Below are positions 1,081 through 50,826 of a stretch of 64,000 nt of DNA, piece after piece (positions within the stretch are counted from its first letter, which is position 1; each line of letters opens with the position of its first letter). Source of the DNA: Owenia fusiformis (taxonomy: Eukaryota; Annelida; Polychaeta; Sabellida; Oweniidae). The stretch spans positions 28,482,425-28,546,424 of the forward strand of contig CAIIXF020000010.1 of the NCBI GenBank assembly GCA_903813345.2. The letters run 5' to 3'. A program made the position numbers and the translations under genes. The notes under the pieces were generated by a model. That model was not told the DNA's origin and made no database searches. It saw only the letters and a program-made list of their open reading frames with translations.

Positions 1081-1146
1081 ATGAATACTGCAACTGTACC
1101 AACACCTGTCCAAGATGTCCAAGGGGATAACAGGTGGATGAGCATG
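1081..1146 (+). CDS. PAFAH1B2: PAFAH copy 1 exon 1 (start codon)
   Basis: It encodes 22 residues ending DNRWMSM, matching the N-terminal QGDDRWMS region of the family. The donor is ATG|GTAGGA. Joined to exon 2 it gives MSM-HNRF, equivalent to MSQHNRF in vertebrates. No counterpart is present in copy 2. Confidence 0.85.
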
Positions 1147-4100
1147 GTAGGAACACTTCAAAAATATGTTTTTCAACTAATCAACCAGGACATTTTTCTT
1201 ATGCCGATCATACATATGATTAGTCCAACAACATTAGACCTAGCCTGGGCTTCGTTTCTTATCTGACATGTCTTATGGCCCCTGCTAGGTCTAACCTCCA
1301 TGACCATTTTGCCCTTGATGTGTTAATTTAGTCGTTCAGCAGGTTCCGACATGCGGAACTAATTAAACTCCGAAAACATGGTAATATTACATAAAGAATG
1401 TGATTCAAGCATGCATACATACCTTATAAATACATACACACCATCCCGTACCCCCCTTAGACCATATTGATGCATAATTACGAAAATATTGGAGACAGGT
1501 TTGGAATTTTACGAAAATATCGGTCAACTCCGGTAACATCGAAATTGCAAATCGTATCAGGAATTAACCGTCATTGCGACACTGCATCAACGAACAGTAG
1601 GTTTGCAATTAATAACTATTTTGTGTGTATACAAGCGCTATATAAATCAATCAAAGATACCTGCTATCCTCAAAAATAGTTATTTTATCCCGAGTAATCG
1701 CGTGATAATTATCAATCTATTTGACAACAATTTCGTTTCAATAGTTTACATTTTAACCCGGGACGAACAGACACAATGGCGGACATGCGGAAATGTCATT
1801 TTAGAGATTGGTAAGTTTAACCTCATTTTACTTGTATAAATGACCATTTAATACAATAATATTGTGTTTAATCGCTTGATGTTATGTGTTTTTATATTGT
1901 TGTCAAGTATCAGTTGCATGTTATCGTGGAAAAATGGTTTCGGTGGATCCAAAACTTGCATCAATGGAAAGAATAGTAAGGAGGTTAAACTCAATAATGG
2001 CCCCAAGAAAATTCTTAATAATAAATAACGCCGTTATTGAGTTTAACGACGTTGAACTAACATATGATGTATTATTAGGCTTATTTATCCCTATAAATGT
2101 GGGGTTGATTTTTCACATCACCACATGGTTGTTGGAAGTTCAATACAATAAGTAAAAATATCAGGTTAGGAAAGATCCATGTAGAATTTCATTTCCATAC
2201 GGATACTGCACATGCTTCCCGCAATGTGATTGGTCATAAGGCGGAGCGCGGATCATTTTATGTCTGTTTTTTGTACTGTCATCATCTTATGTCTGATAGA
2301 TATGCTTTGAGTGGCTTATTTATACTTTACCCGTTCAAAACAGCATCACACTTTTTAACATTGATAATGATATTTTCGACAGACAGATGTAGGTTGCCAA
2401 ATTGATTTCGATGTAGCTGATGACTAGTTTTCATTATTGTTCATGTATCATTGTCAAGTTTAATATATCATGATATGTTCAGTATTGAATGTTCAGTAAC
2501 ATCTCAGATTTATAAGTATATTTTTCAAATAGGTACGCTCATTTAAATGTTCACATGTTCTATTTACAATGTAATATTAATAATCCTTTGAAAACTCACC
2601 CATATGCTCTGGGCACTTTTTAGAGAATGGGCGCTTATTACGGAGAATACAGTATATATGATGCTATTCTAGTATCAGAAAAAACAACACATTTGAACTG
2701 TACCTACACCTACAGGAAGTGGGCATTTGCAGTAGGCCTAGTATCAAATGTTTAACACAAGCAGACCTTTCTCAGAGCAAATCTTTACTTTTTCTGTTTC
2801 AGCACAATCGGTTTGTGGCACAGGGGAAGCGTCGTGAAGTAGAGGTGTTGTTCATTGGAGACTCTCTCGTTCAACAATTACAGTTCTCTCCAGTAAGAAA
2901 AATTAGATTAATGTCATATAAACTGTATGAAATAAGCTTTTAATAAAGATCTGTTGTTTAAAAGCATTTTGATAGATTAATGTTTATAAGTTTATGTCAA
3001 AACTGAAGTGTGCAAAATGCAACCAGGCTCTGGGTAACTCTGGCTCTTATTGGTTGCAATTTGTTATTATATAGCCAATTAATTATATCAACAATTAGGA
3101 GTCTGGTTGCAGTTTACACAGACCCGCGAAGATTTGTAGACATATTGTTTAGAGTTCATGATGTAAAAGGCAAATTAAATAAATTATTATCTTTATTTGT
3201 TAAATTTTAGTGTCACTTCAATATATAAACTCCATCTTTATTTTATTGACCAAACTGATTTTAGCTAACTAATAAAATAAAATAAAATTTAGGGTGAATG
3301 TCTGTATTATGGCCTATATGTTGTTGGCCAAAGTGCTAGCCATAAAAATTAGATTATTAGCAAAGTGTGACTTTTGACTACTGTCAAATCTCATTCATGC
3401 TTTTTTAGCTCTACACCAAAGGATTGGCAGCCATTATTCAAACTTGATTTACCATTGCCTGGCATAGAACAATTAAGTCATACTATTTCTGTCTTGTTCA
3501 TCTTGAGTATCTTGTACTTCTGGAGTATCTTGTTCATAGTGAGTATCTTGTTCACCTTGAGTATCTTGTTCATCCCAAGTTTCTTGTTCATCCCGAGTAT
3601 CTTCTTCATCTTGAGTATCTACTTTACATTTATACCTAGAGTACAAGTAATATGATAATATTCAAACTTTTTTGCTCTGTTAGTTTTCAATATATTGCCA
3701 GGCAATTGAAGATCGCGGCTTATAATCCTTTTTGACTCAACACTATTAAATTACAATTTTCTTGCATGTTACTTAGGTGTTATCCAAACAAATGGAAAAC
3801 ATATAAGAAAACCTGCACATAAATAATATATAACTTCTACACTCTCCTAGGTATGGGAAAAATTGTTTGTTCCCCTTCATTCAATCAATTTTGGAGTCGG
3901 AGGTGACGCAACTCATCACGTATTATGGCGTATACAGAATGGTGAACTAGATCATATAACATGCAAGGTATAGAGACAAGGATTGACCCGTAGAAATGTC
4001 ATTGTGCTCATGTTTTAAAATGACAAATCGATTGTAAAACAGAGGAATTAGCATGAAATAAAGCTGAAAAATCACATGAAATAAGCATGAACAGACGGAC

Positions 4101-7100
4101 ATTCAACCATGGAAAATATAAACATGAGCACAATGACATATTGTAAGTAAGTTGGAGTAATCTGTTCTTTTGGAAAGGTGACAGGAAGTGGTGTAATCCT
4201 TGGGTGGTTTCTGCGACTCACTATCTTCTTCATTTCTTTGCACAAAAGATCATTCTGTTAAATCATGCCAGTATTTTGTAATTTTGAAACAATCATGGGA
4301 TTATTTTCACAAAATTTGACTTAAAACTATAACATTTCCCTGATTAGATCTTTTTGGCAAAAGATGGTATGCTTTATTGGAATGGTCAAACGGAAGCATC
4401 TTCATCCACATTTAGATACCTTGATGATTGATTGATTCATTAGTTGATTGGTTGATTGATTATTCAATCGATTGATTGATTGATTTACATTTAATAGTTT
4501 TACACCTTATCTCTGAATCCTCCCCTGCTATTCCCTGAATAAGAATATGTAACATTCATCAGGGCAAAGGCTTTAACAGAAGTAACAATGTTTTCTACTT
4601 TTACCACTCTAGTTGATTTAACATTATGATACATGGTTTAAAGGGAACACAAACTATTTTCAAACGCACTGTCTGTTCAGTAATAGTTTCTAATGTGTGT
4701 CCAAAGGTGCTTCCAAAATATACTTAGCAAGAATTCAAAAACATTGATACATGTATACTGTAAAAAATCTTGAAGTTTGAGTATGTTTTTGTTCACTCAG
4801 TATGCACAACAATTGCATTCTAAGCAGTCTCTAAATTTCCATAACATTGCTGTCAGTGGTTTTGCATATATAGTTCAGTGAAAGAGTGAAGTACAAAGAA
4901 TGATTGTTTTTGGGATTCGGTTTTTTCACAGTATACATGCACAGTACTGTCTGAAGCCAGTTATGATGTAACTTCTTTAATACGCCAATTATATTCAGAA
5001 AATAAATGCTGCATTTTTATTTACCTTAGTTTCATATTAGAAGCTTTAGTCAAAATGCTGGTTTCAGGTGGTATTTTCATGTTTTTGATAGAAACTAAGA
5101 TAGTAACCCCAGTGGTCTCCCCAGCATTAAAGCAAGTGGATGCAGCACCCACCTGAGATTTTAAAAACAATCTTTCACCCACCTGAAAATCCATTTGCAC
5201 CCACTTGAAAATGAGAGAATCATGAAAAATGGGTATATTTTGACCAATTTTGGTCTGAATTTTGAAAATGAGAATTTTGCACCCACTTGAGAAAAAATCC
5301 TCGGGAGAACACTGAACCTATGTATTTAGTCTATATGGGGGTAGCCAGGTAACAGGAAGGTGAAGCAACTACCTCAACAAAATGGTAAAGGAAAGTAAGA
5401 AATTGGACATTTTTGCAATTGAACCTCTGAAAATAAAGTCTTATGACTGAAAGTACAAGTATAACTATTACTTTAGTTCATATTAGCCTCACCTATTTGC
5501 CTCATCTTTTAAATCCTGGCTACACCCTTAGTTTTTTTATCTAGTTTAGATATAGGTGGCGTCCTAAGAACCTCATTCTGCTATCTGATTGGTTAACCCT
5601 CTTACCTCTGACCTTGACCTTTAAATTAACCCTTTCACCTACACACTGCATCCTTTAGGTCTGGGAGAAAATGTTTGTTCCTCTACACTGTTTAAATTTT
5701 GGGATCGGGAAAGATGAAACCCAACACGTTTTATGGAGGTTACAAAACGGAGAGCTTGATAGTTTGTCTCCTAAGGTACTGCTTCTGCTTCTAAATACTA
5801 TGTACAGAATAATGTGTTCAAAGTGAGCAAGCTTTTGCATTAAGAGATGTTCACATTAAGTGGTGCTCACATTAGGTGGTTCACATTAAGTGGTGCTCAC
5901 ATTAGGTGGTTCACATTAAGTGGTGCTCACATTAGGTGGTGCTCACATTAAGTGGTGCTCACATTAGGTGGTGTTGACATTGAGAGGTGTTTATATATAT
6001 AGAGGTGGACATGGGAGTCAGTGGACTATGTAAAATTGGGAATTTTCAACAGTTTCGATTTTGTATAAATAAGAAGATTTTACTGCGGTATTGTGTTTAT
6101 GCATTTACAATATGCCACAAGATTTGTGTTTAACCAGAGACATATATAATAACATTATTTTATGTCTTTGGTTTAACCTAATTGAAAATCTTTTAGAATT
6201 AATTTTTTTATACTGAATGTTTTTGTAAGATTTGTTGATGTTTCCAATTTTGTAAAATGAAAATAAAGTGAAAAACAGTAGAATTTGTTAGTAAAAGAAT
6301 AAACAGACTTATAGTCAATGCTTTAAATTGTATAGAAACATCAGGACATCAAACACTTTATTCAAATTTTAAAGAGAAAAACCTCCCAAGAGGCAAAACC
6401 GAAACTAAATCCCATAGCACTTTAATGTTACCCTTTTCTAGAATATTCTTGCATTTTAGGTAGTGGTGTTGCTAGTCGGTACAAACAATCACGATCACAG
6501 TGCAGATCAGGTAGTTGAAGGAATATTGGCAATAGTTAACACAATTGAGGAAAAACAACCAGAGGCCCAAACTGTTGTTGTAGTAAGTAGACATACGAGT
6601 ACATAGTAAAATGCTCACGAAGGAATGACTCAGATATGAGTAGGTAGTTACCAGTTTTACAGCCAGGTGGCTCCTTCGGGTCAGATAGCATGTAGAAAGT
6701 TCCCTTTAACTTAATAGTCATCTGTTTTGGTGGTTCAAATTCATATCATATATAAATATGACAATGATCAAGATAATGTATTGTGATTCAAAAATGAAGA
6801 TGAAATATAAAACATTTGCCCTGGCGGATTTGAGCCTGCTCCATTTGAGTCAAAAAGCTCAGTGTAAACAATAAGCAACCGAATTAGCTGATAATGACTG
6901 AGAATTTTAATCACTCAATTGTCCTTCTGTTTGAACATCCATCTGTCTGTACATCTATCCATCAACCATTTTCAGATGAATGAAATTTGCTTGTCCTCAA
7001 TCTTTTGCGTTCCTGTCCATTTGATGGCGCTCATACTACTAATTTATAACTTAGGTCTTACTTTTGCCTTGTTAGAGTAATCAGTCGTTACTAAATGCAA

Positions 7101-7629
7101 TTTTAATCATGTTTCACCTCGTATGTTTTGAGGGACCTTTTATGATTTCTTTCCTGTCAGGTGTCAAAACAATTTTTACAATAAATTCTTCAGTTATAAG
7201 GCTACATTATCCAAGTCAATATGAGTGAACACATCTTCATTAACCTTAATAGTTCAAAAGTTACTTTTCACATAATACTAGTGTCCTATATATAAGAAAA
7301 GTGAAGATATTTCTATTTTCTACTTTCAGGGAATTCCACCTAGAGGTCAAAACCCGAATAAATTACGTGAAAAAATCACCAAAATCAACCAATCACTAGC
7401 CAGTAAACTATCCAATGAGCCACGAGCAGTGTTCGTCAATGTGGACGCAGGACTTTTTGTAAATTCTGACGGTGAAATAAGCCATAGAGACATGTATGAT
7501 TATCTCCATTTTACTGCGCAAGGATATCAAAAATTATGCGAACCAATTTTGGAGGAAGTTCAGAATTTGCTGAAAACTTTTGTCAAAGTAGAAAGTACGT
7601 CGTTTGATGAGGGTCGTGACCTTAACTAG
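1081..7629 (+). CDS. PAFAH1B2: PAF acetylhydrolase 1B catalytic (alpha) subunit, complete spliced gene with two alternative copies of exon 3
   Basis: Coding exons are 1081-1146, 2803-2892, 3851-3967 (3a) or 5659-5775 (3b), 6460-6582 and 7330-7629. All internal junctions are phase 0 with GT donors and AG acceptors. With one exon 3 the product is 231 aa, close to the 229 aa of human PAFAH1B2. SGNH-hydrolase landmarks are visible: GDS with the nucleophilic Ser in exon 2, the block II GGD in exon 3a, GTNNH with the block III Asn in exon 4, and DYLH with the catalytic Asp and His in exon 5. The family removes the sn-2 acetyl group from platelet-activating factor in the cytosol and associates with LIS1. 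Exon 1 carries the family's N-terminal QGDNRWMS motif. An AATAAA lies at 7885-7890. Invertebrates usually have one ortholog of vertebrate B2 and B3, so the symbol is approximate. Confidence 0.93.
2803..2892 (+). CDS. PAFAH1B2: PAFAH copy 1 exon 2 (nucleophile Ser)
   Basis: Thirty codons from HNRFVAQ to QFSP, containing LFIGDS, the SGNH block I with the catalytic serine. The acceptor is a polypyrimidine run ending TTTCAG and the donor is CCA|GTAAGA. Confidence 0.92.
3493..3618 (+). repeat. 18-bp tandem repeat, 7 units, in PAFAH intron 2
   Basis: Seven exact-length units built on CTTGTTCATCTTGAGTAT. The matching place in copy 2 (39148-39201) has only three units. An apparent ORF across it is a by-product of the 18-bp period. 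Confidence 0.85.
3851..3967 (+). CDS. PAFAH1B2: PAFAH alternative exon 3a (block II GGD intact)
   Basis: Thirty-nine codons beginning VWEKLFVPLH and ending ELDHITCK, phase 0 at both ends. It contains NFGVGGD, where the Gly before Asp is the block II oxyanion-hole glycine of SGNH hydrolases. It aligns without gaps to exon 3b and to a single 39-residue segment of vertebrate PAFAH1B2. It probably represents the conventional form. Confidence 0.9.
4425..4492 (+). repeat. GATT-type microsatellite
   Basis: Interrupted GATT/GATTG run in the intron between exons 3a and 3b. It is shared with copy 2 near 40324-40388. Confidence 0.8.
5659..5775 (+). CDS. PAFAH1B2: PAFAH alternative exon 3b (block II Gly replaced by Lys)
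   Basis: Also 39 codons, phase 0 at both ends, beginning VWEKMFVPLH and ending ELDSLSPK. It encodes the same protein segment as 3a, with about ten substitutions and no gaps. The motif reads NFGIGKD, so Lys occupies the glycine position. Splice signals are good (TTTAG acceptor, AAG|GTACTG donor) and both genomic copies keep the open frame. It lies 1.69 kb after 3a. Including both exons would keep frame but duplicate 39 residues inside the fold, so mutually exclusive use is the most likely reading. Confidence 0.88.
5856..5960 (+). repeat. 30-bp tandem repeat in the intron after exon 3b
   Basis: The unit is made of two related halves, TTCACATTAAGTGG and TGCTCACATTAGGTGG. There are about four to five units here and about two at the homologous site 42060-42120, so copy number changed after duplication. 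Confidence 0.8.
6460..6582 (+). CDS. PAFAH1B2: PAFAH copy 1 exon 4 (block III Asn)
   Basis: Forty-one codons starting VVVLLVGTNNHDH. GTNNH holds the block III asparagine. The donor is GTA|GTAAGT, a consensus site. Confidence 0.92.
7330..7629 (+). CDS. PAFAH1B2: PAFAH copy 1 exon 5 (catalytic Asp/His, stop)
   Basis: Ninety-nine codons plus TAG. It starts GIPPRGQNPN, as in the family's GLLPRGEKPN segment. YDYLHFT carries the catalytic Asp and His three residues apart. The C-terminal tail (VESTSFDEGRDLN) is not conserved in vertebrates. Confidence 0.93.
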   Translation, partial: GIPPRGQNPNKLREKITKINQSLASKLSNEPRAVFVNVDAGLFVNSDGEISHRDMYDYLHFTAQGYQKLCEPILEEVQNLLKTFVKVESTSFDEGRDLN

Positions 7630-10179: not shown

Positions 10180-13100
10180 TTAACTGCTTTGTCGTACATG
10201 TATATTATTATTGCGATAAAAAATGATATGGTATACTGTCAAATAAAACCAATCTAATCTGAATATATATTATGTGGAAATGATTTCATTGGGTGATGTT
10301 CATTTGGAGGTATTTTATTTCAAATGGGAATAAGGAACAAGATAAGTATTCCATTTATAGAGGCTTTCCATTATTGATTTAGAAGAGTTTGTTTTTTATA
10401 AAGCGTTCATTATTTTAAGTATTAGACTTCCTCCTTTTGTAAGCACAAATAAAACTTTTGTATTTTGTTAGAAATTACAAATTTAGTATTTGTAAATAAT
10501 GAGGTTATGCATATTAACTAGTGCATATCGAGGTAAAATATAATGAGGTAATACATAATAATTTAGGAAATGCATGATTTGCAATTTATGTCTAGTAAAA
10601 CATAATGAATCAAAAATAATGAGGGAAAAAATTAAAATGAGGTGAAACAAAAAGGAGGTAAAGTATAATAATAAGGTAAATAAGGTAAAAGATAAGACTT
10701 TTGTCGGAATAGTGCAATGCAGTTACAATTTAAAAATGTCTGAATCAACATTTTTGTAAAATTGAGATGAATGACACATTAAACAAATTGACTGTCATAT
10801 AGTTATGCATTTTAAACAATTTCAGTTTGATTATCATGATATATTTAATTTTAATAGAGCGTGTTATGTGTCTCTAGAAAAGCATTAAGAGACAAATGAT
10901 CTTGTTATTAGGGTATCCTTTTTTATTTATTTTTATGTCCCCACCACATAGTGTGGGGCCATATTGTCGTTATTAGGGTATCCTTGAGGTTATGCACATT
11001 AATTAGTGCATATCGAGGTAAAATATAATGAGGTAATACATAATAATTTAGGAAATGCATGATTTGCAATTTATGTCTAGTAAAACATAATGAATCAAAA
11101 ATAATGAGAAAAAAATTAAAATGAGGTGAAACAAAAAGGAAGTAAAGTATAATAATAAGGTAAAAGATAAAACTTGTCGGAATAGTGCAATGCAGTTACA
11201 ATTTATAAATGTCTGAATCAACATTTTTGTAAAATTGAGATGAATGGCATATTTAACAAATTGACTGTAATATAGTTATGCATTTTAAACAATTTCAGTT
11301 TGATTATCATGATATATTTAATTTTAATGGAGCAATTACGCGTCTCTAGAAAAACATGAAGAGACAAATGATCTTGTTATTAGGGTATCCCTTTTTATTT
11401 ATTTTTTTATAATTGTTTTTTTTCTTTATTACACAGTTTATGATATTAGTTACAAATATTGGTGATAAATCACTATAAGCTAGCATTATGAGTTCATTCT
11501 ATATATAAAAAAGAAGATCGAGTTCTTTTTATGCCTTTTTATTTATGGGGCAATTCAGCCCTTGATATTGTGCTTATCCGCTTTGGTATAATGTTAACAT
11601 GTACTTGCATTGTGCATGCTGTAATTATTATTAAATGCAATGCATTTGTAAAATACAATGCATTTGTAAATTACAATGCATTTGTAAAATGCAAAGCATT
11701 TGTAAAATGCAATGCATTTGTAAAATGCAATGTATTTTTATAAAATGCAATGTACTTATAAGATACAATTTACTAAATGCAATGTACTGATTATAGCTTA
11801 GAGCAATATACAAGTACTGAGCTAGTGGACTTGTTTTGTGCAATGTACTTGCCTAGTGTACTTGTATATAGTGCAGTTATCATAAGCGATCTTTTTTTGC
11901 CAATCATACTTTATTAAAATAACTTGATAACAGCTGCTGTAAATGTTATGTATAGTGTCAACTTATTGTATAGCATAAGATTATTGTATAGCCTCAAGTT
12001 ATTGTGTAACCTCAGATTATTGTATAGCATCAAACTATGGTAATAAAAATTGTAATACACACCTAGACATATTTATTTGTTTCCAGTTCATTTCTTGGTA
12101 AATTAATTAAATATTTAAGAAGAATGTAAAATGGCATATTTCTATGGTAAAAAATTAATCAGTATCACTTCTCATTTATTATTGTGATAAAAATGATATG
12201 GTATACTGTCAAATAAAACCAATCTAATCTGAATATATATAATGTGGAGATGATTTCATTGGCTGATGTTCATTTGGAGGTATTTTATTTAAAATGGGAA
12301 TTAAGAAACAAGAGAAGAATTCACAATAAGATCTTCAGAAGGATGTTTTTCAGAAAGACATTCCATTTATAGAGACTTTCCATTATTGATTTAGAAGAGT
12401 TTGTTTTTTAGAAAACGTTCATTACTTCCTCCTTTTGTAAGCACCAATAAAACTTTTGTATTTTGTTAGAAATTACAAATTTAGTATTTGTAAATAATGA
12501 GGTTATGCATATTAACTAGTGCATATCGAGGTAAAATATAATGAGGTAATACATAATAATTTAGGAAATGCATGATTTGCAATTTATGTCTAGTAAAACA
12601 TAATGAATCAAAAATAATGAGGGAAAAAATTAAAATGAGGTGAAACAAAAAGGAGGTAAAGTATAACAATAAGGTAAAAGATAAAACTTGTCGGAATAGT
12701 GCAATGCAGTTACAATTTAAAAATGTCTGAATCAACATTTTTGTAAAATTGAGATGAATGACACATTAAACAAATTGACTGTCATATAGTTATGCATTTT
12801 AAACAATTTCAGTTTGATTATCATGATAAATTTAATTTTAATAGAGCAATGTTTACATGTCTCTTGAAAAACATGAAAAGACAAATGATCTATTATTACG
12901 GTATGCTTTTTATTTATTTTTTTATAATTGTTTTATTTCTTTATTACACAGTTTATGAATATGGTAGTTACAAATATTGGTGACAAATTCCTATAAGCTA
13001 GCATTATGAGTTCTCCCTATATATAAAATAAAAAAAGAAGATTGAGTTCTTTTTATGCTTTTTATTTATGGGGCCATTCAGCCCTTGATATTGTGCTTAT

Positions 13101-13651
13101 CTGCTTCAGTATAATGTTAACATGTACTTGCATTGCGCACGTTGTAATTATTATTAAATGCAATGCATTTGTAAAATGCAATGTACTTATAAGATATGAT
13201 TTATTTGTAAAAAGCAATATATTTGTTTAAAGCTTAGAGCAATGTACAAGTACTGAACTAGTGCACTTGTTTTGTGCAATGTACTTGTCTAGTGTACTTG
13301 TATATAGTGCAATAATCATAAGCGATCTTTTTGCCAATCATATTTTATTAAAATATCTTGATAACAGCTGCTGTAAATGTTATTGTATATCCTCAACTTA
13401 TTGTATAGCATAAGTTTATTGTATAGCCTCAAGTTATTGTGTAACCTCAGATTATTGTATAGCATCAAACTATGGTAATAAAAATTGTAATACACACCTA
13501 GATATATTTATTTGTTTCCAGTTCATTTCTTGGTAAATTAATTAAATATTTAAGAAGAATGTAAAATGGCATATTTCTATGGTAAAAAATTAATCAGTAT
13601 CACATCTCATTGAGTCATCGACATTCCAGTAAATAATTCACTAAAGCAAGT
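10180..13651. repeat. AT-rich macrosatellite-like array, copy 1
   Basis: Kilobase-scale direct repeats share a module running from GAGGTTATGCATATTAACTA through AATGAGGTAATACATAATAA to CAGTTTGATTATCATGATA. Modules start near 10500, 10985 and 12499. Near 11630-11745 there is a smaller run of AATGCATTTGTAAA words. The downstream module ending GTAATACACACCTAGA is repeated at 12050 and 13495. Small ORFs here are periodicity artefacts. Homologous to 46300-50780. Confidence 0.75.
10934..10970. mobile_element. Stub of the ATGTCCCCACCA element
   Basis: About 36 bases matching the left end of the element at 48678, flanked on both sides by TTATTAGGGTATCCTT. The same stub is at 48203-48240, so it predates the large duplication. 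Confidence 0.7.
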
Positions 13652-16184: not shown

Positions 16185-17560
16185 TAAGTATGGCCACCTT
16201 AAAATTTACCCAGAATGCCCAAAAACCAATCACTTCTTGACGTTGATATGTAGAAACATCCCTGAAAATTTCAGATGAATCCCTCAAATGGTTTGGCTGA
16301 AAATCTGTAGACAAGTCTTGAAAGTGAAGATTTTAGGACAGAAAATCCAAAATGGCCACCTTAAAATTTACCCAGAATGCCCAAAAACAAATCAGTTCTT
16401 GACGTTGATATGTAGAAACATCCCAGAAAATGTCAGATGAATCCCTCAAATGGTTTGGCTGAAAACCTGTTGACAAGTCTTGAAAGTGAAGATTTTAGGA
16501 CGGAAAATCCAAAATGGCCACCTTAAAACTTACCCAGAATGCCCAAAAACTAATCAGTTCTTGACGTTGATATGTAGAAACATCCCTGAAAATTTCAGAT
16601 GAATCCCTCAAATGGTTTGGCTGGAAACCTGTAGACAAGTCTTGAAAGTGAAGATTTTAGGACGGAAAATCCAAAATGAGCACCTTAAAATTTACCCAGA
16701 ATGCCCAAAAACTAATCAGTTCTTGAGGTTGATACGTAGAAACATCCCTGAAAATTTCAGATGAATCCCTCAAATGGTTTGGCTGAAAACCTGTAGACAA
16801 GTCTTGAAAGTGAAGATTTTAGGACGGAAAATCCAAAATGGCCACCTTAAGATTTACCCAGAATGCCCAAAAACTAATCAGGTCTTGACGTTGATATGTA
16901 GAAACATCCCTGAAAATTTCAGATGAATCCCTCAAATGGTTTGGCTGGAAACCTGTAGACAAGTCTTGAAAGTGAAGATTTTAGGACGGAAAATCTAAAA
17001 TGGCCCCCTTAAGATTTACCCAGAATGCCCAAAAACTAATCAGTTCTTGTCGTTGATATGTAAAAACATCCCTGAAAATTTCAGATGAATCCCTCAAATG
17101 GTTTGGCTGGAAACCTGTAGACAAGTCTTGAAATTGAAGATTTAAGGACGGAAAATCCAAAATGGCCACCTTAAGATTTACCCAGAATACCCAAAAACTA
17201 ATCACTTCTTGACGTTGATATGTAGAAACATCCCTGAAAATTTCAGATGAATCCCTCAAATATTTGGCTGAAAACCTGTAGACAAGTCTTGAAAGTGAAG
17301 ATTTTAGGACGGAAAATCCAAAATGGCCACCTTAATATTTACCCATAATGCCCAAAAACTAATCAACCTGTAGACAAGTCTTGAAAGTGAAGATTTTAAG
17401 ACGGAAAATCCAAAATGGCCACCTTAAGATTTACCCAGAATGCCCAAAAACTAATCAGTTCTTGACGTTGATATGTAGAAACATCCCTGAAAATTTCAGA
17501 TGAATCCCTCACATGGTTTGGCTGGAAACCTGTAGACAAGCTGAAAAGTGAGACGCCGCC
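16185..17560 (-). repeat. 161-bp minisatellite, about 8.5 units
   Basis: Successive units repeat GTAGAAACATCCCTGAAAAT, CAAATGGTTTGGCTG, GACAAGTCTTGAAAGTGAAG and CCAAAATGGCCACCTTAA at about 161-base spacing. One unit is shortened at 17325-17417. The reverse complement is clearly related to the repeats inside the element at 48678-50091. Diverged monomers also lie at 15920-16040 and 29550-29650. Confidence 0.85.
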
Positions 17561-36586: not shown

Positions 36587-37828
36587 TGTCTAATGCCTGC
36601 TCCGATTCATCTGCCGGCGCTCTGCCGGTTGCAGTATTTTGTTCAAAACTGATTTCAACTAGCTTCAAATTGACCAAACTTCTTTTTTAAATCATGTACA
36701 AATTATCAGGAGTTCACATGTACAAAAAATACAGACAAGACTTTCATATTAAAATGCAATTTTAAAATGCAAAACGCCTTCATTTACCCGAAGATCAAGA
36801 AATAATTTAAGTGATTTAATCAACTTATGAATGGTGGATGAATACATCGAGGGCAACACTTTGGAATTCATTACCTTAATATTGAAATAAAATCATCTGG
36901 AAGTATTTTAAAATGTCATTATGAAGAAAGAAATGAGAAAAAACGTTTCTTATATCAATAATACCACTTTTCAAACATGACAGTGGGCAGTATATGACAA
37001 ATCTTTAAGTAGGTTTAAATAGTATACATTTATCACACAAGCAGATCCCCAAGCTATTTATTTCATAACTTTAGCAAGAAATATACACAAGTCGTGCCAC
37101 CCGTTCATTGAACAATGTTGTTAAAAAATATATGCATATATGGATAAATGAAATGCAACCAGCCCAGTAGCTCAGTAGAAAGAGCAATACTCTATAGACC
37201 GAAATGTCTTGAGTTCAAATCCCATCCAAGTTGAATTACTCTAACTCATTTTCTTACACTACAATTGATTTTGGATTGTTTGATATTATTGTTTTGTATT
37301 CTATTTTATCGTATGATCTGTAAAATGAAGCCCTCTGATAGGTCACTTCTTGTGCTGTACCAACCTGTTTTGCTACTGAGATTGTCCCCGTTGATCATCT
37401 CCGTCGCAATACAGAAAATATTGGGACGGAGTGGACATTCTCAGTAGCAATACAGAGGATTACACGATAAAAACGTTATAGAATGATTTGAAATGCAATA
37501 CAGGATATATTCTGTCTCGATATTCTGTGTTGGCACTCGACTTCGTCTCGTTCCAATACGGAATTTCTCGAGCAGAATATATCCTGTATTGCACTTCAAA
37601 TCATTCAATAACTTATAGTATTTACCACAAGTGAAGGTGAGCAATACCTCTTGGGTATAATTCGTATGTGTACGATCGGGATTTACGCAAAATAATCCTG
37701 AACGACGACCAAGAAACCCCACCTCGAAGGAGTTCTAGGCCTGTGTTCTTTTATGTGCACCCATACATAGGCATACGCGTTCACACGCCTTTTACGAGTC
37801 TAGGTCGTGGACCACTCAGTCAAATACA
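36587..37828. other. Copy-B-specific filler with mobile elements
   Basis: Unmatched in copy A. It contains a tRNA-like sequence at 37155-37235 (A-box-like TAGCTCAGTAGAAAGAGCA, B-box-like GAGTTCAAATCCC) and the hairpin element at 37305-37615. Confidence 0.6.
37305..37615. mobile_element. Double-hairpin MITE, first copy
   Basis: Begins TTATCGTATGATCTGTAAAA. It has one hairpin around the TTGCTACTGAGATTGTCC/GGACATTCTCAGTAGCAATA pair and a second formed by GCAATACAGGATATATTCTG and its reverse complement. Same family as 40805-41117. Confidence 0.8.
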
Positions 37829-38467: not shown

Positions 38468-39147
38468 AGACCTTTCTCAGAGCAAATCTTTACTTTTTCT
38501 GTTTCAGCACAATCGGTTTGTGGCACAGGGGAAGCGTCGTGAAGTAAAGGTGTTGTTCATTGGAGACTCTCTCGTTCAACAATTACAGTTCTCTCCAGTA
38601 AGAAAAATTAGATTAATGTCATATAAACTGTATGAAATAAGCTTTTAATAAAGCTCGTTGTTTAAAAGCATTTTGCTAGATTAATGTTTATAAGTTTATG
38701 TCAAAACTGAAGTGTGCAAAATGCAACCAGGCTCTGGGTAACTCTGGCTCTTATTGGTTGCAATTTGTTATTATATAGCCAATTAATTATATCAACAATT
38801 AGGAGTCTGGTTGCAGTTTACACAGACCCGCGAAGATTTGTAGACATATTGTTTAGAGTTCATGATGTAAAAGGCAAATTAAATAAATTATTATCTTTAT
38901 TTGTTAAATTTTAGTGTCACTTCAATATATAAACTCCATCTTTATTTTATTGACCAAACTGATTTTAGCTAACTAATAAAATAAAATCATTTTAGGGTGC
39001 ATGTCTGTACTATGGCCCACATATTGTTGGCCAATATGCTAGTTAAGTTGTGCTTTGTTAGCACTGCACCAAGGAGGGTTGGTAGCCATTATTCAAACTT
39101 GATCTACCATTGCCTGGCATCGACCAATTTAGTCATAATATTTCTGT

Positions 39148-39446: not shown

Positions 39447-40804
39447 ATAATATTCGAACTTCTTTGGCAATGCTAGTCCTCAATACTAGTATATGGGAAA
39501 TATTGTTACAAAATTGCTCCTTTGCCAGGTAATGGAAGATCGTGGCCTATAATCCTCTTTGGCTCAACACTGTTAAATTGTTACAATTTTCTTGCATGTT
39601 ACTTAGGTGTTATCCAAACAAATGGAAAAAAACAAACAAAAACCTGCACATAAATAATATATAACTTCTACACTCTCCTAGGTATGGGAAAAATTGTTTG
39701 TTCCCCTTCATTCAATCAACTTTGGAGTCGGAGGTGACGCAACTCATCATGTATTATGGCGTATACAGAATGGTGAACTAGATCATGTAACGTGCAAGGT
39801 ATAGAGACAAGGATTGACCCGTAGAAATGTCATTGTGCTCATATTTTAAAATCGCAAATATATTGTAAAAAGAGGAATTAGCATGAATTAAAGCTGACAG
39901 GCTCGTAGTAAAGACTCTTAATTGTTTAGAAATTCATGAAAATCAGACATTTCATTCAATTTTTGACAAAAATCGCATGAAATAAGCATGAACAGACGGA
40001 CATCTCAACCACGGAAAATATAAACATGAGCAAAATGACATATTGTAAGTAAGTTGGAGTAATCTGTTCTTTTGGAAAGGTGACAGGAAGTGTTGTAATC
40101 CTTGGGTGATTTCTGCGACTGACTATGTTCTTCATTTCTTTTCACAAAAGATCATTCCGTTAAATCATGCCAGTATTTTGTAATTTTGAAACAATCATGG
40201 GATTATTTTCACATAATTTGACTTAAAACTATAACATTTCCCTGATTAGATCTTTTTGGCAAAAGATGGTATGCTTTATTGGAATGGTCAAACAGAAGCA
40301 TCTTCATCCACATTTAGATACCTTGATGAGTGATTGATTCATTAGTTGATTGGTTGATTGATTATTCAATCGATTGATTGATTGATTTACATTTAATAGT
40401 CTTACACCTTATCTCTGAATCCTCCCCTGCTATTCCCTGAATAAGAATATGTAGCATTCATCAGGGCAAGGGTTTTACCAGAAGTAACAATGTTTTCTAC
40501 TTTTACCACTCTGGTTGATTTATCATTATGATAAGTGGTTTAAAGGGAACACAAACCTTTTTCAAACACACTTTCCGTTTAGTAATAGTTTTTAATGTGT
40601 GTCCAAAGGTGCTTCCAAAATATTCTAAGCAAGAATTCAAAAACATTGATACATGTATACTGTAAAAAATCTTGAAGTTTGAGTATGTTTTCGTTCACTC
40701 AGTATGCACAACAGTTGCATTCTAAGCAGTCTTTAAATTTCCATAACATTGCTGTCATTGGTTTTGCATAGTTCAGTGAAAGAGTGAAGCAAAAAGCAAA
40801 AAGA

Positions 40805-41117
40805 ATTATCGTATGATCTGTAAAATGAAGCCTTCTAATTGGTCAGTTCTTGTGCTGTACCAATCTGTATTGCTACTGAGATTGTCCGCATTGACCATCT
40901 CCGTCTCAATACAGAAAATATTGGCATGGAGGGGACATTCTCAGTAGCAATACAGAGGATCACACGATAAAAACGTTTTAGAATGATTTGAAGTGCAATA
41001 CAGGATATATTCTGTCTCGATATTCTGTATTGGCACTCGACTTCGTCTCGTTCCAATATGGAATTTTCTCGAGCAGAATATATCCTGTATTGCACTTCAA
41101 ATCATTCAATAACTTAT
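40805..41117. mobile_element. Double-hairpin MITE, second copy, inserted in PAFAH copy 2
   Basis: Sits between AAAAAGAAT and GTGATTGTTTTT. Copy 1 reads AAAGAATGATTGTTTTT without a break at about 4898. Same family as 37305-37615. ORFs across it are hairpin artefacts. Confidence 0.85.
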
Positions 41118-43701
41118 GTGATTGTTTTTGGGGATTGGTTTTTTTCACAGTATACATGCACAGTACTGTCTGAAACCAGTTATGATGTAACTCTTTAATA
41201 CGCCAATTATATTCAGAAAATAATTCCTGCATTTGTATTTAACTTTAAGTTTCATATTCAAAAACTTTAATCAAAATGCTGGTTTCAGGTGATATTCTCA
41301 TGTTTTTGATAGAAACTAAAATACTAACCTCAGTGGTCTCCCCAGCATTAAAGCAAGTGGATGCAGCACCCACCTGAGATTTTAAAAACAGGCTTGCACC
41401 CACATGAAAATCCATTTGCACCCACTTGAAAATGGGAAGAATCATGAAAAATGGGCATATTTTGACCAATTTTGGTCAGAATTGTGAAAATGAGAATTTT
41501 GCACCCACTTGAGAAAATATCCTCGGGAGAACACTGAACCTATGTATTTAGTCTATATGGGGGTAGCCAGGTAACAGGAAGGTGAAGCAACTACCTCAAC
41601 AAAATGGTAAAGGAAAGTAAGAAATTGGACATTTTTGCAATTGAACCTCTGAAAATGAAGTCTAATGAGTGAAAGTACTAGTATAGTTCAAATTAGCCTC
41701 ACCTATTTGCCTCGCCTTTTAGATCCTGGCTACGCTCTTAGTTTATTTATCTAGTTTAGATATAGGTGGCGTCCTAAGAACCTCATTCTGCTATCTGATT
41801 GGTTAACCCTCCTACCTCTGACCTTGACCTTTAAATTAACCCTTTCACCTACACACTGCATCCTTTAGGTCTGGGAGAAAATATTTGTTCCCCTGCACTG
41901 TTTAAACTTTGGGATCAGGAAAGATGAAACCCAACATGTTTTATGGAGGTTACAAAACGGAGAGCTTGATAGTTTGTCTCCTAAGGTACTGCTACTGCTT
42001 CTAAATACTATGTACAGAAAAATGTGTTATAAAGTGAGCAAGTTTTTACATTAAGAGATGTTCACATTAAGTGGTGCTCACATTAGGTGATTCACATTAA
42101 GTGGTGCTCACATTAGGTGGTGTTGACATTGAGAGCTGTTACAGTTTATATATAGAGAGGTGGACATGGGAGGCAGTGGACTATGTAAAATAAAATATGC
42201 CACTAGCTGTATTCACGTGTATTGCTCTTTGTTATTTTAAAAAGTATTTATTCGTAGTATTTTGTTTACTGGAAATCTAGTATAGATTTATTTAACTCAT
42301 CAAGATTTGTGTTTAACCAGAGACATATAATAACATTATTTTCTGTCTTTGGTTCCTAATTGAAAATCTTTTAGAATTAAATTCGTAAACTGAAAATAAA
42401 GTGAAAAACAGTAGAATTTGTCAGTAATAGAATAAAATACACTTTGCTTTATATTATATAGTCGAAATGTTAGGACATCAGTCACTTTATCAAATTTTAA
42501 AGAGAAAAACCTCCAAAATGCATGACTGGAAGGAAATTCTGTTTACTTTAATGTAGGGCCTAACCCTTTTCTAGAATATTCTTACATTGTAGGTAGTGGT
42601 GTTGCTAGTCGGTACAAACAATCACGATCACAGTGCAGATCAGGTAGTTGAAGGAATATTGGCAATAGTTAACACAATTGAGGAAAAACAACCAGAGGCC
42701 CAAACAGTTGTTGTAGTAAGTAGTCATATGAGAACATAGTAAATGCTCACAAAGGAATGACTCGGATGCGAATAGGTAGTTACCAGTTTCACAGCCAGGT
42801 GGCTCCTTCGGGTCAGATAGCATGTAGAAAGTTCCCTTTAACTTAATAGTCATCTGTTTTGGTGGTTCAAATTCATATCATATATAAATATGACAATGAT
42901 CAAGATAATGTATTGTGATTCAAAAATGAAAATAAAATATAAAACATTTGCCCTGGCGGATTCCAGCCTGCTCTGTTTGAAATCACTCAATTGTCCTTCT
43001 GTTTGAACATCTGTCTGTCTGTACATCTATCCATCAACCATTTTCAGTTGAATGAAATTTGCTTGTCCTCAATCTTTTGCGTTCCTGTCCATTTGATGGC
43101 GCTCATACTACTAATTTATAACAAAGGTCTTACTTTTACCTTGTTAGAGTAATCAGCCGTTACTAAATGCAATTTTAATCATGTTTCACCTCGTATGTTT
43201 TGAGGGACCTTTTATGATTTCTTTCCTGTCAGGTGTCAAAACAATTTTTACAATAAATTCTTCAGTTATAAGGCTACATTATCCAAGTCAATATGAGTGA
43301 ACACATCTTCATTAACCTTAATAGTTCAAAAGTCACTTTTCACGTAATACTAGAGTCCTATATATAAGAAAAGTGAAGATATTTCTATTTTCTACTTACA
43401 GGGAATTCCACCTAGATGTCAAAACCCGAATAAATTACGTGAAAAAATCACCAAAATCAACCAATCACTAGCCAGTAAACTATCCAATGAGCCACGAGCA
43501 GTGTTCGTCAATGTGGACGCAGGACTTTTTGTAAATTCTGATGGTGAAATAAGCCATAGAGACATGTATGATTATCTCCATTTTACTGCGCAAGGATATC
43601 AAAAATTATGCGAACCAATTTTGGAGGAAGTTCAGAATTTGCTGAAAACTTTTGTCAAAGTAGAGAGTACGTCGTTTGATGAGGGTCGTGACCTTAACTA
43701 G

Positions 43702-46300: not shown

Positions 46301-48202
46301 CTTTGTAGTACATGTATATTATTATTGTGATAAAAAATGATATGGTATACTGTCAAATAAAACCAATCTAATCTGAGTAATACATAATAATTTAGGAAAT
46401 GCATGATTTGCAATTTATGTCTAGTAAAACATAATGAATCAAAAATAATGAGGGAAAAAAATAAAATGAGGTGAAACAAAAAGGAGGTAAAGTATAATAA
46501 TAAGGTAAAAGATAAAGTCGGAATAGTGCAATGCAGTTACAATTTAAAAATGTCTGAATCAACACTTTTGTAAAATTGAGATGAATGACACATTTAACAA
46601 ATTGACTGTAATATAGTTATATAGTTATGCATTTTAAACAATTTCAGTTTGATTATCATGATATATTTAATTTTAATAGAGCAATTACGTGTCTCTAGAA
46701 AAACATGAAAAGACAAATGATCTTGTTATTAGCCTAGGGTATCCTTTTTTATTTTATTTTTTTTATAATTGTTTTATTTCTTTATTACACAGTTTATGAC
46801 AATGTTAGTTACAAATATTGGTGACAAATCACTATAAGCTAGCATTATGAGTTCATTCTAAATATAAAAAAGAAGATCGAGTTCTTTTTATGCTTTTTAT
46901 TTATGGGGCAATTCAGCCCTTGATATTGAGCTTATCCGCTTTGGTATATAATGTTTACATGTACTTGCATTGTGCATGCTGTAATTATTATTAAATGCAA
47001 TGCATTTGTAAAATACAATGCATTTGTAAAATGAAAGCATTTATAAAATGCAATGCATTTGTAAAATGCAATGTATTTTTATAAAATGCAATGTACTTAT
47101 AAGATACAATTTACTAAATGCAATGTACAGATTATAGCTTAGAGCAATATACAAGTACTGAGCTAGTGGACTTGTTTTGTGCAATGTACTTGCTTAGTGT
47201 ACTTGTATATAGTGCAATAATCATAAGCGATCTTTTTTTGCCAATCATACTTTATTAAAATATCTTGATAACAGCTGCTGTAAATGTTATGTATAGTGTC
47301 AACTTATTGTATAGCATAAGTTTATTGTATAGCCTCAAGTTATTGTGTAACCTCAGATTATTGTATAGCATCAAACTATGGTAATAAAAATTGTAATACA
47401 CACCTAGACATATTTATTTGTTTCCAGTTCATTTCTTGGTAAATTAATTAAATATTTAAGAAGAATGTAAAATGGCATATTTCTATGGTAAAAAATTAAT
47501 CAGTATCACTTCTCATTTATTATTGTGATAAAGATGATATGGTATACTGTCAAATAAAACCAATCTAATCTGAATATATATAATGTGGAGATGATTTCAT
47601 TGGCTGATGTTCATTTGGAGGTATTTTATTTAAAATGGGAATTAAGAAACAAGAGAAGAATTCACAATAAGATCTTCAGAAGGATGTTTTTCAGAAAGAC
47701 ATTCCATTTATAGAGGCTCTCCTCCTTTTGTAAGCACCAATAAAACTTTTGTATTTTGTTAGAAATTACAAATTTAGTATTTGTAAATAATGAGGTTATG
47801 CATATTAACTAGTGCATATCGAGGTAAATATATAATGAGGTAATACATAATAATTTAGGAAATGCCTGATATGCAATTTATGTCTAGTAAAACATAATGA
47901 ATCAAAAATAATGAGGAAAAAAATTAAAATGAGGTGAAACAAAAAGGAGGTAAAGTATAATAATAAGGTAAAAGATAAAACTTGTCGGAATAGTGCAATG
48001 CAGTTACAATTTAAAAATGTCTGAATCAACATTTTTGTAAAATTGAGATGAATGGCATATTTAACAAATTGACTGTCATATAGTTATGCATTTTAAACAA
48101 TTTCAGTTTGATTATCATGATATATTTAATTTTAATAGAGCAATTACGTGTTTCTAGAAAAACATGAAGAGACAAATGATCTTGTTATTAGGGTATCCTT
48201 TT

Positions 48203-48240
48203 TTTATGTCCCCACCACATAGTGTGGGGCCATATTGTCG
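48203..48240. mobile_element. Stub of the ATGTCCCCACCA element, copy 2
   Basis: Counterpart of 10934-10970, again between two TTATTAGGGTATCCTT words. Confidence 0.7.
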
Positions 48241-48677
48241 TTATTAGGGTATCCTTGAGGTTATGCATATTAATTAGTGCATATCGAGGTAAAAATATAA
48301 TGAGGTAATACATAATAATTTAGGAAATGCATGATTTGCAATTTATGTCTAGTAAAACATAATGAATCAAAAATAATGAGGAAAAAAATTAAAATGAGGT
48401 GAAACAAAAAGGAGGTAAAGTATAATAATAAGGTAAAAGATAAAACTTGTCGGAATAGTGCAATGCAGTTACAATTTAAAAATGTCTGAATCAACATTTT
48501 TGTAAAATTGAGATGAATGGCATATTTAACAAATTGACTGTCATATAGTTATATAGTTATGCATTTTAAACAATTTCAGTTTGATTATCATGATATATTT
48601 AATATTAATAGAGCAATTACGTGTCTCTAGAAAAACATGAAGAGACCAATGATTTTGTTATTAGGGTATCCTTTTTT

Positions 48678-50091
48678 ATGTCCCCACCACATAGTGTGGG
48701 GCCATATTGTCGTCCTAGGCGCGTCCGTCCGTCTGTTTGTCTGTCTGTCTGTCCGTCCGTCCGTACGTCCAGCAGTTTTCTCCAAAACCACTACAGATAT
48801 CACCTTCAAATTTTCAGGGATAACTTATAAGTGCTTACAGATGTGGATGAAAAAAATTTAACTCATACGTACTTCCTGTCGGTCATTTTGAAGTCAAATG
48901 CTAAAATCCTTGTCTGCAAACTTTAAGAAAAACGGCTTCACAGTTGCTTTTAAAACTTTAATATCTTGTTCAGCTTACTTCATTCTACATCTGATTAGGT
49001 TTGTACTTTGTATCATATTGAATGGTGTTTTTGAGTTTTCATACTTTAACTATTTAGTAGCTTTATAAATAGTTTCAGGTGTACTTTGTTGTAAAAGCCT
49101 ATGTTATTGTTAACAGTGGTTATATGTGACAATTTTGTAAAAGGAAATCAGCAAAAACTCATAATCACTTTTTTATTGTCGGCCATTTTGGATTTTTCTG
49201 TCCTTAAATCGTGTCTGTAAAGTCTTGTCCAGGTAAACCGTTTGGTAGATCAATTTCAAATTTTCAGGGATGATTCTTAGTATGATTCTAGATCTGATTA
49301 GTTTTTGGGCATTCTGGGTAAATGTCAAGGCAGCCATTTTGGATTTTCCGTCTTAAAAATCGTGTCTGTAAAGTCTTGTCTACACATTTCCAGGTGAACA
49401 GTTTGGTAGATCAATTTCAAATTTTCAGGGATGATTCTTAGTATGGAAATCTAGATCTGATTACTTTTTTTGGCGTTCTGGGTAAATGTCAAGGCAGCCA
49501 ATTTGGATTTTCCGTCTTTGAAATCTTGTCTGTAAAGTCTTGTCTACGCATTTCCAAGTGAAGCGTTTGGTAGATCAATTTCAAATTTTCAGGGATGATT
49601 CTTAGTATGAAAATCTAGATATGATTAGTTTTTTGGCGTTCAGGGTAAATGTCAAGGCAGCCATTTTGGATTTTCCGTCTTAAAATCTTGTCTGTAAAGT
49701 CTTGTCTACGCATTTCCAAGTGAACCGTTTGGTAGATCAATTTCAAATTTTCAAGGATGATTCTTAGTATTAAAATCTTAAACTGATTAGTTTTTTGACA
49801 TTCTGGGTAAATGTCAAGGCAGTCATTTTGGATTTTCCATTCTAAAATCTTCTGTTTCTGTTCTGTAAAGTTCTGTTTACATGTTTTCTGGTTAACTGTT
49901 TGATGGATGAATTTCAAATTTTCAGGAGTGGTTCATAGTATGAAAATCTCGAACTAACTAATTTTTGGGCATTCTGGGTAAATTTTTATGGCTGCCATTT
50001 TGGATTTTTCGTCCTCAAATTGTGTTGGTAAAGTCTTGTCTACTTATTTTCAGGATAACCATTCGATGGGATCACCCATTGGTGGGGACAT
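48678..50091. mobile_element. 1.4-kb non-autonomous TIR element with internal ~160-bp repeats
   Basis: It starts ATGTCCCCACCA and ends TGGTGGGGACAT, a perfect 12-bp terminal inverted repeat. The left end continues with a CCGTCCGTCTGTCTGT run (48722-48770). From 49150 to 50060 about five to six units of ~160 bases repeat ATTCTGGGTAAATGTCAAGG and CATTTTGGATTTTCCGTC. These are the reverse complement family of the 16.2-17.6 kb minisatellite. No transposase ORF; short ORFs follow the repeat. Confidence 0.75.
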
Positions 50092-50826
50092 TTTGTACAC
50101 ATTTGTGTTCTTGTTTATACTTGTTTTATTTCTTAATTACACAGTTTATGACAATGTTAGTTACAAATATTGGTGACAAATCACTATAAGGTAGCATTAT
50201 GAGATCATTCTATGTATAAAAAAGAAGATTGAGTTATTTTTATGCTTTTTATTTATGGGGCCATTCAGCCCTTGATATTGTGCTTATCTGCTTCAGTATA
50301 ATGTTAACATGTACTTGCATTGCGCACGTTGTAATTATTATTTAATGCAAAATGCAATGTACTTAATAAGATATGATTTATTTGTAAAAAGCAATATATT
50401 TGTTTATAACTTAGAGCAATGTACAAGTACTGAACTAGTGCACTTGTTTTGTGCAATGTACTTGTCTAGTGTACTTGTATATGGTGCAATAATCATAAGC
50501 GATCTTTTTGCCAATCATATTTTATTAAAATATCTTGATAACAGCTGCTGTAAATGTTATTGTATATCCTCAACTTATTGTATAGCATAAGTTTATTGTA
50601 TAGCCTCAAGTTATTGTGTAACCTCAGATTATTGTATAGCATCAGACTATGGTAATAAAAATTGTAATACACACCTAGACATATTTATTTGTTTCCAGTT
50701 CATTTCTTGGTAAATTGTAAATACTTTAGAAGAATGTAAAATGGCATATTTCTATGGTAAAAAATTAATCAGTATTACATCTCAATGAGTCATCGACATT
50801 CCAGTAAATATTTCACTAAAGCAAGA

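Follow-up and report, generated by a model that had tools for sequence, protein, structure and literature searches.

Why does one gene carry two versions of the same internal exon, and what would the choice between them change in the protein? The question is raised by a PAFAH1B alpha gene of the annelid Owenia fusiformis, located on the + strand at positions 1081-7629 of a 64,000-nt stretch of contig CAIIXF020000010.1 (positions 28,482,425 to 28,546,424, forward strand; hereafter the window). Two adjacent exons of this gene, 3a and 3b, encode the same 39-residue segment with 27 of 39 residues identical (69%) and 12 of 39 different. Silent divergence between them is large, both exons are under selection, and one of the substitutions replaces the catalytic-site glycine of 3a by lysine in 3b. 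We give even chances to the explanation that the two exons are used exclusively and that the gene thereby switches its subunit between a catalytic and a catalytically impaired form.

Two versions of exon 3 in a PAFAH1B alpha gene

All junctions of the gene are of phase 0 and follow the GT-AG rule (Table 1). The first-pass annotation had described 3a and 3b as tandem homologous exons of 117 nt and phase 0-0, and their coordinates, splice sites and open frames were confirmed. When 3a was used as tblastn query against the window, 3b was recovered with E = 1.7e-17, a likeness far beyond chance. The predicted product has 231 residues with either 3a or 3b alone, 192 with neither and 270 with both.

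Both isoforms are homologous over their full length to the alpha1 and alpha2 subunits, identifying the gene as one for a PAFAH1B alpha subunit. Residues 2-206 of the 3a isoform matched structures of brain PAF-acetylhydrolase alpha1 with E = 7.2e-81, and the 3b isoform with E = 1.9e-80; the matched chains, labelled 'IB subunit alpha' or 'gamma' in the table of matches, we take to be bovine alpha1. The 3a isoform is 58% identical to alpha1 and 51% identical to alpha2. Pfam Lipase_GDSL_2 was matched by both isoforms, with 64.2 bits for 3a and 66.2 bits for 3b.

In alpha2, Glu39 is reported to be critical for LIS1 binding (PMC8690939). The aligned residue, Glu34, is encoded in shared exon 2, so the LIS1-contact Glu is present in both isoforms. 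Six LIS1-like matches, 60-82% identical, were located at C12:27.638-27.641 Mb. With the aligned Glu and a LIS1 gene in the same genome, the product is predicted to be a LIS1-binding alpha subunit.

Table 1. Positions of the exons and of codon 70 in the three genomic copies of the PAFAH1B alpha gene (window coordinates unless marked; C10 is the contig of the window, L001 is C10:28588500-28598400)
Feature	Position	Strand	Remarks
Copy 1, exon 1	1081-1146	+	coding from ATG, 22 codons; sole exon-1 match in the genome search
Copy 1, exon 2, shared	2803-2892	+	catalytic Ser43; Glu34, aligned with alpha2 Glu39
Copy 1, exon 3a	3851-3967	+	117 nt, 39 codons; block II NFGVGGD, oxyanion Gly70 retained
Copy 1, exon 3a codon 70	3902-3904	+	GGT, Gly (alpha1 Gly74 by alignment)
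Copy 1, exon 3b, alternative to 3a	5659-5775	+	117 nt, 39 codons; block II NFGIGKD
Copy 1, exon 3b codon 70	5710-5712	+	AAA, Lys in three of three copies
Copy 1, exon 4, shared	6460-6582	+	oxyanion Asn100
Copy 1, exon 5, shared	7330-7629	+	triad Asp189 and His192, stop codon
Copy 2, exon 2	38508-38597	+	copy without detected exon 1
Copy 2, exon 3a	39682-39798	+	open frame
Copy 2, exon 3b	41869-41985	+	Arg at 69, Lys at 70
Copy 2, exon 4	42593-42715	+	open frame
Copy 2, exon 5	43402-43701	+	open frame
Copy 3, exon 3a	L001 4175-4291 (C10:28592674-28592790)		beyond the window
Copy 3, exon 3b	L001 6326-6442		beyond the window

A short tandem repeat of AGGTGGT/CACATTA-like units lies just 3' of exon 3b of copy 1, at window 5838-5989.

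Selection on both exons and the age of the pair

Between 3a and 3b of copy 1, silent differences amount to 20.3 of 23.7 sites (pS 0.86) and replacement differences to 17.7 of 93.3 sites (pN 0.19). Silent divergence is saturated: third positions agree at 16 of 39 codons, and 16 of the 27 identical residues are specified by different codons. Neutral evolution was simulated by letting 3b begin as 3a and drift, a run being scored as passing when the exon was still open and at least 27 of 39 residues were identical. Under these conditions, 61% of the simulations passed at 0.1 changes per site and 1.8% at 0.3; at 0.5, 0.75 and 1.0, none of the 20,000 runs made at each level did. As silent change is saturated while replacements are few, we conclude from these comparisons that both exons are old and under selection, and that 3b is no relic.

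A search of the 498-Mb genome with the DNA of exon 3a gave three matches, each of them on the contig of the window: the gene described above (copy 1), a second copy in the window and a third beyond it. Exons 2, 3a, 3b, 4 and 5 are open with intact splice dinucleotides in all three. The changes that divide copy 1 from copies 2 and 3, which may have arisen on either side of the split, comprise 9 silent and 2 replacement changes over all exons (P = 4e-5 for a silent fraction of 22% among random changes and 6e-4 for one of 30%). On this split, exon 3a shows 3 silent changes and 1 replacement and exon 3b 3 silent changes and no replacement.

A view of 3b as an unused relic of exon duplication could draw on its weak 5' splice site (GTACTG, without the G at +5 that the donors of exons 1, 2 and 4 have), on the lost catalytic-site Gly and on two further replacements in 3b of copy 2. 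However, the 3a donor (GTATAG) likewise has no G at +5, and the additional 3b changes belong to copy 2, whose private changes overall number 1 silent and 3 replacement. Taken together with the saturated silent change in a conserved protein, the outcome of the neutral simulations and the lack of replacements in 3b on the deepest split between the copies, this makes a relic very improbable.

The first-pass annotation had also relied on the frames being open in both genomic copies. This observation was upheld and extends to the third copy, but it carries less weight than assumed. The only genome match of exon 1 belongs to copy 1, none being found for copies 2 and 3, and the similarity of these copies to copy 1 starts at 2760, inside intron 1; therefore both look 5'-truncated. 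Their private changes (1 silent and 3 replacement in copy 2; 0 silent and 3 replacement in copy 3), tiny as the numbers are, fit neutral drift. Because of the apparent truncation and the drift-like changes, the open frames in copies 2 and 3 are weaker evidence. Copy 1 is the only complete PAFAH1B alpha gene found in this genome. No other PAFAH1B gene, third alternative exon or retrocopy was found in a genome search up to E 10, which may overlook short or diverged exons; the remaining matches of the 231-residue query, outside the PAFAH1B locus, are GDSL proteins with 21-31% identity.

Exon 3a is identical to alpha1 and alpha2 at 25 and 24 of 39 residues, respectively, and exon 3b at 26 and 25. 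Since the distance between 3a and 3b is about that of each exon from alpha1 and alpha2, the duplication looks old, with the caveat that exon- and lineage-specific rates may differ. The 69% identity between 3a and 3b is also close to the 64-67% identity of the exons to mammalian alpha1, pointing to a very old split, and the pair may therefore be widely shared among relatives of O. fusiformis. The residue counts given above speak against 3a and 3b as equivalents of alpha1 and alpha2, the comparison drawn in the first-pass annotation: no pairing of exons with subunits emerges from them, and the Gly that 3b replaces is retained in the two mammalian proteins.

Several repeats were noted in and around the copies. 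Intron 5 has 1,621 nt in copy 3 compared to 747 nt in copy 1 and 686 nt in copy 2; the surplus (L001 7601-8544), with its long inverted arms of 60, 109 and 130 nt, is possibly an inserted element. Another repeat, about 310 bp long and containing inverted segments, occurs at window 37306-37617 and 40806-41117 and at L001 1797-2107 and 5300-5612, that is, in the 3a-3b intron of copies 2 and 3 and upstream of both. It is absent from the 3a-3b intron of copy 1 and may be a small mobile element. Clustered repeated segments, 82-97% alike, lie downstream of both window gene copies (10205-13650 and 46377-50825). Tandem arrays occupy window 16190-17365, where the unit is about 162 nt, and 49182-50072, where the sequence matches the former on the opposite strand with about 72-74% identity.

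Residue 70 and the active site

Of the exon 3 columns, 24 are invariant in 3a, alpha1 and alpha2, and 21 of these are kept by 3b. The three altered columns comprise two conservative changes, L57M and I88L, and one radical change, G70K, which is found in all three copies. The 3a isoform has the residues of a canonical SGNH hydrolase, Ser43, Gly70, Asn100, Asp189 and His192, aligned with those of alpha1 and alpha2. The 3b isoform departs from this set at the block II Gly; the other four residues are encoded in shared exons 2, 4 and 5. At the 12 differing positions, the alpha1 residue occurs in 3b at five (64, 68, 74, 80 and 90) and in 3a at four (57, 70, 87 and 88), so 3b seems not to be a decayed form of 3a.

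The block II Gly serves as oxyanion donor in PAF-acetylhydrolase and related enzymes (PMC9487903; PMC3905857), and in canonical SGNH members block II folds into a type-II turn, by which the Gly NH faces the active site (PMC5697884). In the explanation we favour, splicing would include either 3a or 3b. Transcripts with 3a would encode a canonical SGNH hydrolase that has the Ser-Asp-His triad and an oxyanion hole with three donors, Ser43, Gly70 and Asn100; those with 3b would encode this protein with Lys in place of the block II Gly. The Lys would disfavour the type-II turn that presents the Gly NH, and catalysis would be lost or strongly reduced. As the 3b form is expected to keep the fold, the triad and the LIS1-contact Glu, the choice of exon would switch the subunit between a catalytic role and one that is mainly structural or regulatory, with assembly with LIS1 still possible in the latter. 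Since 3b changes Gly70 to Lys, and shared exons supply the triad, Asn100 and the LIS1-contact Glu to both forms, splicing would probably decide between an active subunit and one with impaired or altered catalysis, and not between alpha1 and alpha2.

Several points weigh against a loss of catalysis. The oxyanion donor at block II is a backbone NH, which Lys possesses as well. A search for related loci yielded no confirmed bacterial or viral relatives, and bacterial relatives were taken from plasmids instead, 9 of 12 matches being read (H9, H10 and H12 were omitted). At column 70, six of these nine have Gly, two Ser and one Phe, and Lys does not occur; all of them share Ser43, Asn100 and His192, and Asp189 is found in eight and falls in a gap in the remaining one. 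Since three of the nine have a residue other than Gly at this column with Ser43, Asn100 and His192 in place, position 70 appears to tolerate change in likely enzymes. Moreover, SGNH enzymes have been described that are active with another residue in block II, Ser in SpOatA and Arg in PatB1 (PMC9487903, PMC5697884).

Exclusive exons could thus also encode two active isoforms, 3b having another substrate preference or rate and an oxyanion hole rebuilt by the Lys side chain or an altered turn. The intact triad and Asn100, the Arg of PatB1, which provides the oxyanion donor, and the slightly higher Pfam score of 3b are in line with this alternative, to which we assign roughly half the weight of the favoured explanation. 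On the other hand, precedents of the SpOatA/PatB1 type have further changes around block II or a different turn fold; they resemble 3b in having replaced the block II oxyanion Gly, but the replacement there is fixed rather than a splice option, and the enzymes or domains concerned are bacterial and active (PMC9487903, PMC5697884). None of the nine bacterial relatives has Lys, both mammalian subunits keep Gly, and the animal example of a basic residue 70 has a decayed triad.

This example, PAFAH1b alpha of the silkworm Antheraea pernyi, appears to be the closest animal parallel to 3b that we have seen. Its oxyanion residues are Ser43-Arg70-Asn100, the triad His is lost, and activity was untested in that study; the Drosophila homologue is reported to be inactive and was given a non-catalytic role (PMC3281379). 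In the insect genes, however, the loss is a fixed one that extends to triad residues, whereas in O. fusiformis the change is confined to an alternative exon and the triad is intact. Vertebrate PAFAH1B2 and PAFAH1B3 (alpha2 and alpha1) resemble the 3a isoform, which has all triad and oxyanion residues. They differ from the O. fusiformis arrangement in being two genes, both with the block II Gly; here, one gene has two forms that differ at 12 of 39 residues of one exon, one of them without the Gly.

Proposed exclusive use of the exons and its significance

Similar length, same phase, compatible splice sites and homology have been used to recognize mutually exclusive exons; in a survey of the Drosophila X chromosome, 90 of 16,180 non-exclusive exons had such features (PMC3228551). 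Exons 3a and 3b share all of these properties and are internal and neighbouring, lying between exons 2 and 4. The arrangement is like that of mutually exclusive tandem duplicated exons in, for example, PKM, KHK, SNAP25 and Dscam, where homologous internal exons lie next to each other and agree in length and phase. Mutually exclusive splicing is the best reading of the exon pair. The first-pass annotation had considered it likely, and the agreement with published features and the selection on both exons are consistent with this, while exclusivity itself is predicted from sequence.

That annotation had also pointed out that the frame is unchanged on double inclusion and that the spacing is long. 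Both observations hold and count against exclusive use, as neither the frame (270 residues with both exons) nor the 1,691-nt intron between 3a and 3b enforces exclusion. It is conceivable, therefore, that some or most transcripts carry both exons or that 3b is an optional cassette, with no evident steric block by an intron of this length and no pairing mechanism found (see below). In such a protein, though, a 39-residue core hydrolase segment would be repeated where aligned relatives have neither gap nor repeat, and non-exclusive exons with features of the exclusive type were rare in the Drosophila survey (PMC3228551). We regard non-exclusive use as improbable.

Competing RNA pairing had been suggested as a means of exclusion, and the introns were checked for docking and selector sequences in nine ungapped intron-intron comparisons (introns 2, 3 and 4 in the three copies, 60 shuffles each). 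No such pairing was found, which also speaks against exclusive splicing: in eight of the nine comparisons, at least 5 and up to 58 of the 60 shuffles did as well as the best observed pairing or better. In the ninth, intron 2 with intron 4 of copy 1, this was true of 1 of 60 shuffles, but copies 2 and 3 have no counterpart of the pairing at that position. Competing RNA structures were rejected in this ungapped test, and weak or gapped pairing is still possible.

Inverted-repeat pairs were also listed (25 of 36 pairs for copy 1, all 20 for copy 2 and 25 of 28 for copy 3), and among those listed no single site pairs with both alternatives. A perfect 20-bp pair beside 3a (3996-4015/4120-4139) occurs, among the pairs listed, in copy 1 only. 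Hairpins in intron 2 (3009-3030/3099-3120) and intron 3 (4750-4767/4922-4939) are common to the three copies. Copies 1 and 2 also share pairings of intron 5 (7151-7183) with the start of 3a (3852-3868) and with a segment of intron 3 (4169-4187). Inverted pairs common to the copies are expected from paralogy. The hexamer TGCATG, the Rbfox motif, occurs once in copy 1, 88 nt upstream of 3a, and three times each in copies 2 and 3; with 25 occurrences on this strand of the window, about 1.4 are expected by chance in introns 2-4. No cis-acting element that would impose exclusion was detected; in the explanation we favour, exclusion would be expected to come from trans-acting control of the two weak donor sites of 3a and 3b.

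Among the open-access papers listed, none has such an exon pair in a PAFAH1B gene in its title or in the opening of its abstract; automatic annotations may include the two isoforms. There are precedents for tandem duplicated exons and for non-catalytic PAFAH1B subunits, and new here would be their joint occurrence in a single gene. The swap would also be unusual in kind. In human exon-swap events, predicted ligand-binding residues in the swapped region are kept in 80.6% (PMC9741552), whereas here a catalytic-site residue of the kind usually conserved in those events is altered.

It is not settled what PAFAH1B alpha subunits are kept for in animals: mice without them have defects of the testis and not of the brain (PMC7373426), and the fly protein is reported to be inactive (PMC3281379). 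We hold it possible, at somewhat less than even chances, that in O. fusiformis an old pair of exclusive exons toggles PAFAH1B alpha between enzyme and pseudoenzyme, pairing the catalytic role of the vertebrate proteins with the non-catalytic role of the fly protein. If this is true, splicing may give one gene two products, a working enzyme and a silent or altered form of it, and a single animal would allow the catalytic and LIS1-binding roles to be compared across its tissues and stages.

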